From: an uncultured Candidatus Melainabacteria bacterium
GTDB lineage: Bacteria; Cyanobacteriota; Vampirovibrionia; Gastranaerophilales; Gastranaerophilaceae
Length of the DNA stretch: 48,617 bases
Reading direction: 5' to 3'
Assembly: GCA_945910425.1 (NCBI GenBank)
Contig: CAMDYM010000008.1
Coordinates: forward strand, 1 to 48,617
Position numbers and translations under genes: made by a program
The notes under the pieces: generated by a model
The model's input: only the letters and a program-made list of their open reading frames with translations
Told to the model about the DNA's origin: nothing
The model's database searches: none
Shown: piece by piece, positions 9,869 through 44,677 of the stretch
Layout of the letters: each line of letters opens with the position of its first letter
How positions within the stretch are numbered: position 1 is the first letter of the stretch

Positions 9869-10609
9869 ATGACAAAAAGATTCGGTTTTACTTTGGCAGA
9901 AGTATTGATTACTTTAGGTATCATTGGTGTTGTAGCAGCAATGACAATTCCTACATTGATTGCAAACACAAACGGCGCAAAATTCAGATCACAATTTAAG
10001 AAAACAATTTCAACATTAAACCAAGCAGGTTTGATGGCACAAGCACAGTATGACTTTGACTATGCAGGAACAACAGAAAAATGTACAGGTGTAGTAGCTA
10101 CAGATGCTGCTAAACACCCTGAATCTGCTATGTCATTCTGTGCAATCTTGAACGGTACATTAACAGGTCAAACTTACCAAGGTGCTGTTACAAATATTAA
10201 ACGTAGTAATAACGGTACATCAGAAGCTTATGCTATTAAAACAGTTTCAGCTTTAACAAAAGCAACAGCAGAAACTTATTTAGCTTATACATTAGCTGAT
10301 GGTTCAATCGTAGCATTTAATAAGGATGCTGTAGGTTGTGAACTTCCTATCGGACAACAATTAACTAAAGCATATATTTATACAACTCACCCTGAATGTT
10401 TAGGTTTTATCGACGTAAATGGTGCAACATTACCTAACAGAGAAGTATCATGTTCTGAAGCCGGTAAAGATGCTCAAGATGTTACAGTTCCATGTGCAGT
10501 TAAAAACGATGCTAACCACATGACAGATATCTTCCCTGTATTCTTCCACGATGCAACAGTAGAACCTGCTTCAGCAGCTGCTAAATATGTATTAACAACT
10601 TCTAAATAA
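9869..10609 (+). CDS. Type IV pilin-like protein, probably highly expressed (class A)
   Basis: 246 residues. Leader MTKRFG|FTLAEVLITLGIIGVVAAM: prepilin cleavage after G6, E+5, long hydrophobic helix. The mature protein is a full-length paralogue of the one at 4729, sharing NTNGAKFRSQFKKT, IDVNGATLPNREV and the C-terminal DATVEPAS segment. Cysteines occur in pairs. Codon choice is unusually uniform (ACA, GCA, GGT, TTA dominate) compared with neighbours, and the gene has a consensus promoter, a good ribosome site (AAAGAAAGGTG) and a strong GC-rich terminator: the profile of an abundant single-gene transcript. It may be a major structural pilin. Cellular partner genes are not adjacent. Confidence 0.87.
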   Translation: MTKRFGFTLAEVLITLGIIGVVAAMTIPTLIANTNGAKFRSQFKKTISTLNQAGLMAQAQYDFDYAGTTEKCTGVVATDAAKHPESAMSFCAILNGTLTGQTYQGAVTNIKRSNNGTSEAYAIKTVSALTKATAETYLAYTLADGSIVAFNKDAVGCELPIGQQLTKAYIYTTHPECLGFIDVNGATLPNREVSCSEAGKDAQDVTVPCAVKNDANHMTDIFPVFFHDATVEPASAAAKYVLTTSK

Positions 10610-21149: not shown

Positions 21150-21404
21150 TTATACAGCGTAAACACTAACTTGTTTTCTGTCACGTCTGTGAGGTTCAAA
21201 TTTAACAGTACCGTCAATCAATGCAAATAAAGTATCATCAGAACCGATACCTACATTGTTACCCGGGTGAATTTTTGTTCCTCTTTGTCTAACAAGGATA
21301 TTACCGGCTTTAACAGCTTCGCCACCGAATTTTTTAACGCCTAAACGCTTTGCTTCGGAGTCGCGGCCGTTACGGGTAGATCCCATACCTTTCTTATGTG
21401 CCAT
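21150..21404 (-). CDS. rpmA: Ribosomal protein L27
   Basis: 84 residues. [22 protein letters not shown] and [11 protein letters not shown] are diagnostic. The protein starts MAHKKG, i.e. the conserved AHKKG tail that reaches the peptidyl-transferase centre is directly at the N-terminus, without the cleavable Firmicute-type extension. Ribosome site AAAGGAG is 7-8 nt upstream. Follows rplU by 43 bp. Confidence 0.99.
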
Positions 21405-21935: not shown

Positions 21936-22259
21936 TTATTCTGATATGAAAATTTTAATCATTTTATAAAATTTTTCTGTCTGCTCCGGGGTAAGTTTTC
22001 GGATAAGACGAACCAGCTTATTTTCGGGCTCAGGAGTCGGAACAGTGTTGTTTGTATAAAATTTGTCGATATTAATTTGTAATACTTTAAGCATTTTCAA
22101 AAAAGTCGGAACGCTTGGAAAATGTACTCCGCGCTCGATTTTCCCTATTTGTTTATCTTCAATCCCTACAAGTTCTGCCAGTTCAAACTGTGTAAACCCA
22201 GCCTGTTTTCTGGAGTTTTTAATAATAATACCTATTTTTTGTGCGGAGATTTCATTCAT
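21936..22259 (-). CDS. XRE-family transcriptional regulator
   Basis: 107 residues. An HTH_3 domain spans about 8-63: IGIIIKNSRKQAGFTQFELAELVGI, with FTQFELAELVG as helix 2-turn and EDKQIGKIERGVHFPSV as recognition helix and following turn. The C-terminal ~35 residues (LVRLIRKLTPEQTEKFYKMI) are helical, perhaps for dimerisation. AAGGG lies 6-7 nt before ATG 22259. It is divergent from the pilin gene at 22400, and the 140-bp region between them carries two 16-bp operator-like palindromes in the two promoters, so it is most likely an autorepressor that also controls the pilin gene. Confidence 0.93.
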   Translation of the reverse strand: MNEISAQKIGIIIKNSRKQAGFTQFELAELVGIEDKQIGKIERGVHFPSVPTFLKMLKVLQINIDKFYTNNTVPTPEPENKLVRLIRKLTPEQTEKFYKMIKIFISE

Positions 22260-22273
22260 AGTTAACCCTTCTC

Positions 22274-22282
22274 ATACGCGTT
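22274..22282. promoter_or_regulatory. Operator half-site in the XRE gene leader
   Basis: ATACGCGTT matches one half plus centre of the 22355-22370 palindrome; it lies within the predicted 5' UTR of the XRE gene, just upstream of its ribosome site. Confidence 0.45.
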
Positions 22283-22294
22283 ATTTATAATCAT

Positions 22295-22324
22295 AATATA
22301 TCTATTTACCGTTAATCAGAACAA
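22295..22324 (-). promoter_or_regulatory. Candidate promoter of the XRE regulator
   Basis: Minus strand: TTGTTC (22319-22324), 18 bp, TATATT (22295-22300). Its -35 overlaps operator 22323-22338 by two bases. Confidence 0.5.
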
Positions 22325-22338
22325 CGCATAAGTGCGTT
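22323..22338. promoter_or_regulatory. Operator O2, imperfect 16-bp palindrome
   Basis: AACGCATAAGTGCGTT: arms AACGCA/TGCGTT. Lies between the two divergent -35 elements, touching that of the XRE gene; its centre is 32 bp (about three helical turns) from O1. Confidence 0.75.
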
Positions 22339-22346
22339 ATTATATA

Positions 22347-22375
22347 TTGACAACAACGCGTATACGCGTTATAAT
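22347..22375 (+). promoter_or_regulatory. Pilin promoter with operator O1 filling the spacer
   Basis: TTGACA (22347-22352), 17 bp, TATAAT (22370-22375): both hexamers are consensus. The spacer is almost wholly the perfect 16-bp palindrome AACGCGTATACGCGTT (22355-22370). A bound dimer would block RNA polymerase completely. Confidence 0.88.
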
Positions 22376-22399
22376 TTCTCCAAAACGGAGGGCGTAATT

Positions 22400-23089
22400 A
22401 TGGTTGGTAAAAAAGGGTTTACTCTGGCTGAGGTACTCATAACTCTTGGTATAATCGGTGTCGTTGCGGCATTAACAATCCCGTCATTGATGACAGCCTA
22501 TAAAAAGCATGTAATAGAAACACGCTTAAAACATTCGTATTCTTTATTAAATCAGGTAGTAAAACTTGCTCAAGCAGATTATGATGAGCCGTCAGGCTGG
22601 GATTATACGCTTGGAACGAGTGATTTTGCAAAAACTTATTTCTCACCGTATATGAAATCCGATATAAAAAAGAAAAATACGGGAAATTGGCATATCGTGA
22701 CATTGCTAAACGGGGTAACTTGGACTATTTCAAGATGGATGGGAGGACCTACTGGTGCCTCTTATCCTTATATTAGGATTAATATTGATATAAATGGAAC
22801 TTCTAAACCTAACAAACAAGGTGTAGATGTCTTTAATTTTTATATTCTTCCCCAAAAAAGAGGTTGGTATAATACAGGGGATGGTGATATTGCTTGTAAT
22901 GTTTCAGGTCCTGGTGTTTATTACGATGGGTACGGATTTTCTGATGATGAAATAAAAAATAATTATTACAGGGGGTGTGGATTTAATCCGGAAGAGGGCG
23001 AACCGTACGGTGCAGTAAATAGCTTTTGTGTTGCCTTGATTGTTCGCAATAATTGGAAAATCCCGAAAGATTATCCTATCAAGTTTTAG
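22400..23089 (+). CDS. Type IV pilin-like protein under XRE control (class B)
   Basis: 229 residues. Leader MVGKKG|FTLAEVLITLGIIGVVAAL: cleavage after G6, E+5, hydrophobic helix. The globular domain has DINGTSKPNKQGVD (about residues 134-147) and ends NNWKIPKDYPIKF, like the class B pilin at 1342. It is Trp-, Tyr- and Gly-rich with four or five cysteines, typical of an adhesive or minor pilin head. CGGAGGG is 7-8 nt before ATG 22400. A consensus promoter with an operator in its spacer implies strong expression when derepressed and near silence otherwise. No terminator precedes murF, 54 bp on. Confidence 0.87.
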   Translation: MVGKKGFTLAEVLITLGIIGVVAALTIPSLMTAYKKHVIETRLKHSYSLLNQVVKLAQADYDEPSGWDYTLGTSDFAKTYFSPYMKSDIKKKNTGNWHIVTLLNGVTWTISRWMGGPTGASYPYIRINIDINGTSKPNKQGVDVFNFYILPQKRGWYNTGDGDIACNVSGPGVYYDGYGFSDDEIKNNYYRGCGFNPEEGEPYGAVNSFCVALIVRNNWKIPKDYPIKF

Positions 23090-34812: not shown

Positions 34813-35454
34813 TTGAGGAACAAATCAATATTAACGGGAAATAATTCGGGTAAAAGAGGTTTTACTTTAACTGAGATATTATTGGCGGTTGCAATTGTCG
34901 GAATTATTGCGGCGTTGGTTTTACCTATGGTAATAAAAAATTATCAGGATAAGACTCTTGATGCAGCTTTGAAGCGTGAAAAGCAAACTCTGGAAAGTTC
35001 AATTGCAGCTTTAATTGTTAATGAGAATACGGATGATTATAAAAAAACAATGCTTTATACTTATGCTGAGGAGCTTACGGATTACTCTAATTCAAGCGGA
35101 GCATTCATAAAAAAATATTTAAAAGTTTCAAATTATTGCGGGGATAATAACGGAGATTGCTTTGCAAGTAAGTATTACGAGTATAAAGACGGAGATAAGG
35201 TAGAATACACTCCGACATATAAAGGTGCCTGCGCAAGTTTAAAAAACGGTTCAAGTATATGTATGGAACCTGAAAATCCTAAACATGGAGTAAAATTATT
35301 ACTTGATGTTAACGGTAAAAAAGGACCAAATGTTTATGGACGTGATTTACATGTATATGAAATAACGTTACCGAAAAAAGGCAGTTTATACAGGTCAACT
35401 GATGACCCTGATTGGGATTATAAATTGATTGATATTAATTCTGCTGAACCTTAG
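34813..35454 (+). CDS. Type IV pilin-like protein (class C, long leader)
   Basis: 213 residues from TTG 34813 (GGGGG about 7 nt upstream; no ATG is available before the signal). The leader is 16 residues, longer than in the other four, and the cleavage/helix motif reads KRG|FTLTEILLAVAIVGIIAALVL, with T at +4 instead of A. Mature domain: LDVNGKKGPNVYGRD (about 166-180), the shared D-x-N-G-x3-P-N motif; two Cys pairs near YCGDNNGDCF and GACASLKNGSSIC (disulfide loops). 22 bp after smpB. Could be a minor pilin; its different leader suggests a separate assembly role. Confidence 0.82.
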   Translation: MRNKSILTGNNSGKRGFTLTEILLAVAIVGIIAALVLPMVIKNYQDKTLDAALKREKQTLESSIAALIVNENTDDYKKTMLYTYAEELTDYSNSSGAFIKKYLKVSNYCGDNNGDCFASKYYEYKDGDKVEYTPTYKGACASLKNGSSICMEPENPKHGVKLLLDVNGKKGPNVYGRDLHVYEITLPKKGSLYRSTDDPDWDYKLIDINSAEP

Positions 35455-38089: not shown

Positions 38090-38095
38090 ATATTA

Positions 38096-38270
38096 AGCTT
38101 TCGTATAGGCGTTAATTTTGTTCCTACATTTTTATAAATAGGGAGAGTTAACTCCAGGACATTGAAGTATACCCGCCGATAGCTTTATCGCCAGCGGGAA
38201 ACGGATTATCTCCGGGTTCTCACCCACCTGCGAGCAACAGCAGGTAACAAAATCCGCTTATACGGGGGCT
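38096..38270 (+). ncRNA. ssrS: Probable 6S RNA
   Basis: A 175-nt non-coding unit. AGCTTTCGTATA (38096-38107) pairs with TATACGGGGGCT (38259-38270), helped by G-U pairs, then GGCG..TTTTGTT with AACAAAATCCGC extends the closing stem, and TTTTTT follows as terminator. Inside are a large bubble, a 3'-side hairpin ACCTGC...GCAGGT preceded by CTCACCC, an upper stem (GGGAGAG...CTCACCC, AACTC/GGGTT) and an apical hairpin CCCGCCGATA..TATCGCCAGCGGG. Length, closed ends, central bubble with a 3'-side hairpin and long rod match 6S RNA, which traps housekeeping RNA polymerase. It is not SRP, tmRNA or RNase P. Recognition is by structure, not by search. Confidence 0.6.
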
Positions 38271-38276
38271 TTTTTA

Positions 38277-43609: not shown

Positions 43610-44677
43610 TTATCCTTGGATTAGTCGTTTCAATTCATTCGGTTTGGAAGATTTAGAAAGCGCATCTTCAATCGAAATAAGACCTTTTTTGTACAACTCT
43701 GCAAGAGCAGCTTCAAGGGTTTGCATGCCTGCACCTGAAGAGGTTTGAATTGTAGAATAAATCTGAGCGGCTTTAGCTTCACGAATAAGGTTAGCTACAG
43801 CAGGTGTAACAACCATGATTTCCTGAGCCATAATACGACCTTTTTGAGAACCGTCAGGCTGACGTTTTGGAAGAAGGGTTTGAGAAAATACAGCAACTAA
43901 AGAGTTAGCAAGCTGTACACGAATTTGTTGCTGTTGACCTTCAGGGAATACGTCAATGATACGGTCAATTGTTTGGGAAGCAGAAGAGGTGTGAAGTGTT
44001 CCGAACACTAAGTGACCTGTTTCTGCTGCTGTTAATGCTAATGCGATGGTTTCGTGGTCACGCATCTCACCGACCAGAATAATATCAGGGTCTTCACGAA
44101 GTGCGGATTTTAAAGCGTTAGCAAAAGATCTTGTATCCATACCCAATTCTCTTTGGTGTATAACACTCATTTTTGAGGTATGCACAAATTCGACCGGGTC
44201 CTCAATGGTAAGAATATGTTCAGCTCTTGTTCTGTTAATATAGTCAACCATTGCAGCCAAGGTTGTTGATTTACCTGAACCTGTAGGTCCGGTTACAAGA
44301 ACAAGTCCGCGCGGTTTTTCAGCAATTGTAGTAACAATTGGAGGCATACCAAGTTCTTCTAATTGCGGAGCGGATGTCGCAATTGTACGAAATGCTGCTG
44401 CGTAACAACCTTTATCTTTATAGAAGTTCACACGGAAACGACCTACATTTTCAATACCGTAAGAAAAGTCCAGTTCCCATTCTTGTTCAAGGTGACGTCT
44501 TTGTTCGTTTGACATCATAGGAAATAACAAAGATTCAACCTGTTCAGGTGTTAGCGGGTCATAGTCAAGCCTTATAAGTTTACCGTCGATACGTGCAATT
44601 GGCGGTAATTTACTTGAAATATGCAAGTCGGATCCTTTTTTATTTGTCAACTCTTTTAATAAATCTTCTATAATCAT
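43610..44677 (-). CDS. pilT: Type IV pilus retraction ATPase PilT
   Basis: 355 residues. N-terminal PAS-like domain; Walker A GPTGSGKSTT (residues 130-139), Asp box ILTIEDPVEFVH, Walker B REDPDIILVGEMRD, His box TGHLVFGTLHTSSA, and the retraction-specific motif PAVANLIREAK (AIRNLIRE-like). PilT powers pilus retraction for twitching and DNA uptake. Middle gene of a three-gene unit: 83-aa protein, pilT, membrane protein. GGGGCTTGC precedes ATG 44677. PilB, PilC and PilD are not in the window. Confidence 0.96.
   Translation of the reverse strand: MIIEDLLKELTNKKGSDLHISSKLPPIARIDGKLIRLDYDPLTPEQVESLLFPMMSNEQRRHLEQEWELDFSYGIENVGRFRVNFYKDKGCYAAAFRTIATSAPQLEELGMPPIVTTIAEKPRGLVLVTGPTGSGKSTTLAAMVDYINRTRAEHILTIEDPVEFVHTSKMSVIHQRELGMDTRSFANALKSALREDPDIILVGEMRDHETIALALTAAETGHLVFGTLHTSSASQTIDRIIDVFPEGQQQQIRVQLANSLVAVFSQTLLPKRQPDGSQKGRIMAQEIMVVTPAVANLIREAKAAQIYSTIQTSSGAGMQTLEAALAELYKKGLISIEDALSKSSKPNELKRLIQG

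Follow-up and report, generated by a model that had tools for sequence, protein, structure and literature searches.

The stretch of DNA analysed here (the window, 48,617 nucleotides) comes from a gut-dwelling relative of the cyanobacteria, in whose 1.76-Mb Gastranaerophilales genome it is contig C8, and carries a small XRE-family regulator gene that diverges from a type IV pilin-like gene, with a perfect palindrome, O1, filling the spacer of the pilin promoter. Judged from its sequence, the single locus is well supported as a putative autoregulated repressor unit, and we consider it very probable that this dedicated, local XRE protein represses one pilin through O1 and limits its own expression. 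Both the repressor and the pilin are of ordinary kinds; it is their massed one-to-one pairing that is unusual, and the point of interest is the repertoire of XRE-pilin units to which the locus belongs. The features of the locus are given below in window coordinates.

21936..22259, minus strand: XRE-family putative repressor gene (107 aa, HTH_3)
22274..22282, no strand: O3, ATACGCGTT, putative half-site of an operator, located in the 5' leader of XRE directly before the ribosome-binding site
22295..22300, minus strand: predicted XRE -10, TATATT (5/6), an AT block kept in most orthologues (sequence and footprint alignment)
22319..22324, minus strand: predicted XRE -35, TTGTTC (weak, 3/6), sharing 2 bp with O2 (sequence)
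22323..22338, no strand: O2, AACGCATAAGTGCGTT, with 6-bp arms and a non-symmetric 4-bp centre
22347..22352, plus strand: pilin promoter -35, TTGACA (promoter scan)
22355..22370, no strand: O1, AACGCGTATACGCGTT, perfect 16-bp dyad filling the -35/-10 spacer; putative main operator
22370..22375, plus strand: pilin promoter -10, TATAAT (promoter scan)
22400..23089, plus strand: type IV pilin-like gene (229 aa; N_methyl motif GFTLAE, DUF6613); putative regulated cargo

The divergent XRE and pilin genes are separated by 140 bp, and the closest named records with the XRE protein are Gastranaerophilales or Melainabacteria MAGs. The pilin promoter consists of TTGACA, a 17-bp spacer and TATAAT, matching the consensus at 12 of 12 hexamer positions, and the earlier note's claim of a perfect palindrome nearly filling this spacer is borne out; any perfect 16-bp dyad was obtained in 93 of 20,000 shuffles of the intergenic region. 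The predicted XRE promoter, with 18 bp between TTGTTC and TATATT, is weak by consensus, and its -35 was not reported by the consensus promoter scan. O2 lies upstream of O1, at a distance of 32 bp from centre to centre. The second palindrome that the same note had placed at this distance over the XRE -35 is therefore present, but it overlaps that hexamer by just 2 bp and its conservation is at background level, whereas the half-site proposed for the XRE leader was recovered as O3 and is partly conserved. Elsewhere in the window, a 6S RNA at 38092-38275 scores above the Rfam gathering score.

The putative O1 operator is probably private to the window XRE and would act on one pilin alone. In the window genome, the pattern AACGCN6GCGTT has three matches, two at this locus and the third inside a coding sequence. 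When up to three mismatches to AACGCGTATACGCGTT were allowed, O1 and five further sites were found, each of the five with three mismatches; the four inspected lie within coding frames and the fifth, at 21336-21351, is inside the gene at 21150-21404. A second good O1 site was thus not found in this genome with either pattern, and a regulon of many pilins under the window XRE was rejected on this ground. Across the family, the O1 pattern was scanned as AACGCGNATNCGCGTT in 383 genomes and gave exactly seven matches, one each in G000, G007, G008, G023, G100, G161 and G185. The same seven genomes rank top by score in a separate XRE profile search, and in all seven the site is located about 90-110 bp from the XRE orthologue; the reversed control pattern matched in four other, unrelated genomes. 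It is because XRE and O1 are coupled one-to-one in the 383 genomes, with no good second site, that we judge the operator to be private.

Alignment of ten orthologous loci revealed a footprint in which the conserved blocks are the -35, O1 and the -10, with mean majority fractions per element of 0.97, 0.89 and 0.93, respectively, compared with 0.73 for O3, 0.59 for O2 and about 0.61 elsewhere. The next-best intact XRE proteins after the top seven are those of three loci, one in G299 and two in G353, and at the promoter position of O1 the G299 locus has AACGCACATGTGCGTT and G353a has GACGCGTATACGCGTT. The centre of O1 is GTATAC, GCATGC or ACATGT and is symmetric every time, that is, the changes are paired; in G007 and G023 the dyad reaches 24 bp, at the expense of the -10 consensus. 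Orthologues that keep the regulator without the palindromes were looked for, as the earlier note had suggested: nine of the ten recognisable orthologues keep the O1 dyad and G353b has a half-site alone. G222 has an eleventh, degenerate XRE orthologue, which lacks its 5' end along with the operator region. The dyad count for G353a was taken at the O2 region and not at O1, which understates its agreement, and that for G353b was taken at the upstream copy. O3 is recognisable in seven of the ten loci and missing in three; O2 is clear in the window, G008 and G353a; G007 has half of it, and at several other loci it cannot be recognised. The conserved core of the predicted unit is thus O1 together with the leader half-site O3, not the O1-O2 pair, and a two-operator cooperative pair as the conserved core was rejected because the conservation of O2 is at background level. 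This also disposes of the idea of two palindromes set three helical turns apart for cooperative binding of two dimers, which is not a conserved feature. What stands of the lambda-like autorepressor of a single pilin, as first described, is an XRE with an operator built into the pilin promoter, coupled one-to-one; what falls is the cooperative O1-O2 pairing. The ten intact XRE proteins form one clade (100/99 support) apart from six paralogues of the window genome, and their tree does not distinguish one move from several between the rplU and groES sites.

The pilin cargoes change faster than the regulator and its predicted operator: in the orthologues of the window locus the latter two endure, whereas the outer domain of the pilin can no longer be recognised, is broken or is missing. 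In a comparison of the window with G007, identity is 78% for the XRE and 87% for the neighbouring ribosomal protein L21, but 26% for the pilins past the first 45 residues, with values of 19-38% in other pairs. The unit adjoins rplU-rpmA in the genus of the window and groES-groEL in another genus, with the operator intact. In three orthologues the pilin has decayed or gone while XRE and O1 are intact: in G023 it is split into two ORFs (L038:3097-3879), in G100 a 63-aa leader remnant is left (L169:1989-2180) and in G185 it has disappeared (L171, upstream of 1501). As O1 and XRE outlast the pilin in these cases, O1 may also have a part in the control of XRE; alternatively, the pilin losses may be of recent date. 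The G353a pilin (L174:342-1364) has a weak C-terminal Lcl_C-like match, below the cut-off, and some of the pilin cargoes may be lectin-like adhesins. By eye, the pilins of G161 and G299 (L172:1983-3146 and L173:1962-3248) have a C-terminal sequence similar to that of G353a.

The XRE protein matches HTH_3 with 39.1 bits (cut-off 23), its helix-turn-helix domain spanning about residues 6-67 and being followed by C-terminal helices at 77-87 and 91-106. Its AlphaFold model (pLDDT 87) shows a lambda-repressor-like five-helix domain and then two helices. Among solved structures it comes nearest in fold to SinR, a transposon-related DNA-binding protein of C. difficile, HipB, C.BclI and P22 c2; SinR (1b0n) is the best Foldseek match, and Z is about 10 with P22 c2, C.BclI and SinR. 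The closest named family is RstR (NF041951), with 48.2 bits under a cut-off of 80, and the neighbours of the XRE gene are rplU, rpmA, the pilin and a Mur ligase, with no filamentous prophage carrying rstA, so the protein is not assigned to that family. The recognition-helix segment DDKQxGKIERG hardly varies among carriers whose overall identity is 42-78%. A toxin-antitoxin or defence system was considered and rejected, as its matches were weak and to the HTH only and a partner was absent. For the pilin, the prepilin motif is supported by N_methyl (24.5 bits versus 21.2) and TIGR02532 (26.8 versus 16.3); its model, of moderate confidence (pLDDT 75), has an N-terminal helix at 9-60 (52 residues) and a beta sheet, and the matches to solved type IV pilins are weak (Z 2.5-4.8). 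The window genome also encodes pilus-assembly ATPases, with four places scoring above the cut-off of the T2SSE family, and a platform protein, T2SSF being matched in one gene. The window itself holds a T2SSE (type II/IV secretion ATPase) gene at 43742-44671 (164 bits) and other pilin-like genes at 9869-10609 and 34813-35454; no XRE ORF was seen upstream of the former.

The DNA shows directly the parts, how they are spaced and conserved, the one-to-one coupling of XRE and O1 and the family of modules; from these we infer binding, dimerisation, repression and autorepression. An operator between consensus -35 and -10 hexamers predicts steric repression at sigma-70 promoters, and an XRE dimer on O1 would keep RNA polymerase off the pilin promoter. 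XRE bound at the half-site O3, where its own transcript begins, would limit its own level, as would XRE bound in the window genome at O2, over its own -35; loss or inactivation of XRE would free a very strong pilin promoter. That XRE might instead turn the pilin on, as an activator or as a dual regulator in the manner of C-proteins or MerR-type spacer binders, is suggested by the presence of C.BclI, C.AhdI and C.Esp1396I among the closest solved folds and by the paired operators that C-proteins use. However, a promoter that matches the consensus at 12/12 positions and has the optimal 17-bp spacer does not require an activator, O1 is placed between the hexamers and not upstream, and the sole upstream site, O2, is unconserved, so that we regard activation as very unlikely. 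It is still harder to see the dyads as RNA hairpins or terminators and not as protein sites, a reading to which we attach almost no probability: a terminator scan flags both dyads, but O1 is upstream of the predicted pilin start site, the tails are not T-rich, conservation tracks the XRE gene and the transcribed leaders are without unusual folding.

A true bistable, lambda-like switch, in which cooperative dimers at O1 and O2 would give heritable ON and OFF pilin states, could account for the two dyads 32 bp apart between divergent promoters in the window genome and would suit a SinR-like fold. We nevertheless think it unlikely, because O2 and its spacing are not conserved and the second arm, a regulator repressing XRE, is absent, the divergent partner being a pilin and not a regulator; any bistability would thus be an extrapolation, as are the 'all-or-none switch' and 'surface antigen' of the earlier note. 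The chance is slimmer again that the unit is a phage-derived or addiction-type cassette, that is, an RstR- or HipB-like XRE of mobile-element origin beside which the pilin is incidental. RstR is the closest named model, although below its cut-off, phage repressors are matched in PHROGs, and the distribution is patchy, with two chromosomal sites. Against this, neither a phage nor a toxin gene is adjacent, and a pilin partner recurs across the XRE family.

The earlier note had described one unit; this single-locus view was rejected, as the window genome contains about 41 divergent XRE-pilin pairs, the window locus among them. This census was taken by searches together with fetched stretches. The prepilin motif occurs in 93 sequences of the genome, and the window XRE has 34 matches there. 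Of these, 20 diverge from a pilin that is no more than 400 bp away, compared with 0.36 expected, and over the distances scanned none of the 34 adjoins a pilin in a non-divergent orientation. When a broader XRE profile was used, a divergent XRE was found within 600 bp of 41 of the 87 distinct pilin N-termini in the 1.76-Mb genome. When the window genome and its relatives are taken together, 63 of 128 XRE ORFs have a divergent pilin within 700 bp, a count that includes redundant loci and carries a best-hit bias. The number of XREs is correlated with that of pilins across 36 genomes of the genus (Spearman 0.69, the largest counts being lower bounds). In the 2.2 Mb of one relative, G008, XRE matches number at least 49 and pilin matches at least 115. 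The XRE paralogues of the window genome have a mean identity of 32% and a maximum of 47%, and this low average identity indicates an old radiation.

Whether the other modules carry operators of the same type was examined in several ways. XRE-paired pilin promoters are nearer to the consensus than unpaired ones (p=0.018); dyads, however, are no commoner in XRE-paired than in XRE-less pilin promoters (p=0.26), and 15 of 60 XRE-pilin modules beat their own shuffles for dyads at p<=0.05. With no excess over XRE-less pilin promoters, dyad operators may or may not be a general trait of the modules; palindromic putative operators are supported for the subfamily of the window XRE, not for the modules as a class. 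Modules of different genomes with like recognition helices have promoter-spacer elements in common, such as CTATYCRTAGG in L073, L137 and L153 and GTATGCAAA in L120 and L144. Over the whole set, the correlation between helix and operator shows a step at a helix identity of about 0.62 and is weak with ancestry controlled (partial Mantel p=0.04); therefore, a family-wide match of helix and operator is not separable from common ancestry.

The unit combines traits of several known systems. It resembles the phage-type autoregulated Xre repressors (lambda and 434 CI, P22 c2 and CTXphi RstR) in its small HTH_3 repressor, in promoters that diverge, in dyad operators placed within the core promoter and in presumed self-repression, but differs from them in lacking phage genes, in having no cleavage or peptidase domain (107 aa) and in its pilin cargo. 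SinR, of the SinR/SlrR system of Bacillus subtilis, is likewise a small Xre repressor, acting on genes for surface and biofilm functions, and is the best fold match; however, SinR is global and has the antagonist SinI, whereas here one local repressor is found per pilin and no antagonist was seen. C-proteins (C.BclI and C.Esp1396I), which have paired operators and autoregulation, share the fold, whereas the window unit has no restriction-modification genes and its operator is in the promoter spacer of the target. In Caulobacter, a radiation of paralogous XRE proteins regulates adhesion through the holdfast (PMC10688885); those proteins act on a shared set of genes and are able to form heteromers, whereas here each XRE has its own pilin gene. 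For the Gastranaerophilales, the pilus genes pilA, pilB, pilC, pilT and pilD have been reported (PMC5877343), a few pilus genes of the same order; the available portion of that report does not describe a large pilin repertoire or paired XREs. In the open-licence papers searched, on pilins of Gastranaerophilales, Melainabacteria and Vampirovibrionia and on divergent XRE-pilin pairs in general, we found no description of such a repertoire or of the massed one-to-one pairing.

Variation of surface fibres is known to occur mainly via DNA rearrangement, slippage or methylation. The presence of about 40 repressor-pilin pairs in one small genome points to many surface fibres, each under separate control. 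If dozens of pilins are privately repressed, changes in transcription may suffice for an uncultured gut lineage to vary its surface, which would bear on adhesion, immune recognition and phage receptors. More tentatively, and with somewhat less than even confidence, we propose that a genome may hold about 40 orthogonal one-repressor/one-pilin modules, each with its own operator specificity and switching independently, in which the repressor and operator would persist or relocate while the cargo is replaced; this would amount to surface variation based on transcription factors, distinct from recombination, slippage and inversion. The modules also provide a natural set of many related repressors, at least some subfamilies of which have distinct conserved promoter elements, and should be useful for studies of specificity divergence. 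As a separate observation, the 5' ends of the pilin genes at L071, L089, L100, L135, L007, L112 and L119, in several genomes, contain in-frame insertions in the prepilin leaders, with the FTLAE motif doubled around a GATHV... segment, or with CHSELVSES...KQVQGD and SLAPCGRG-type repeats, as if repeat elements enter the leader and leave the gene unbroken.
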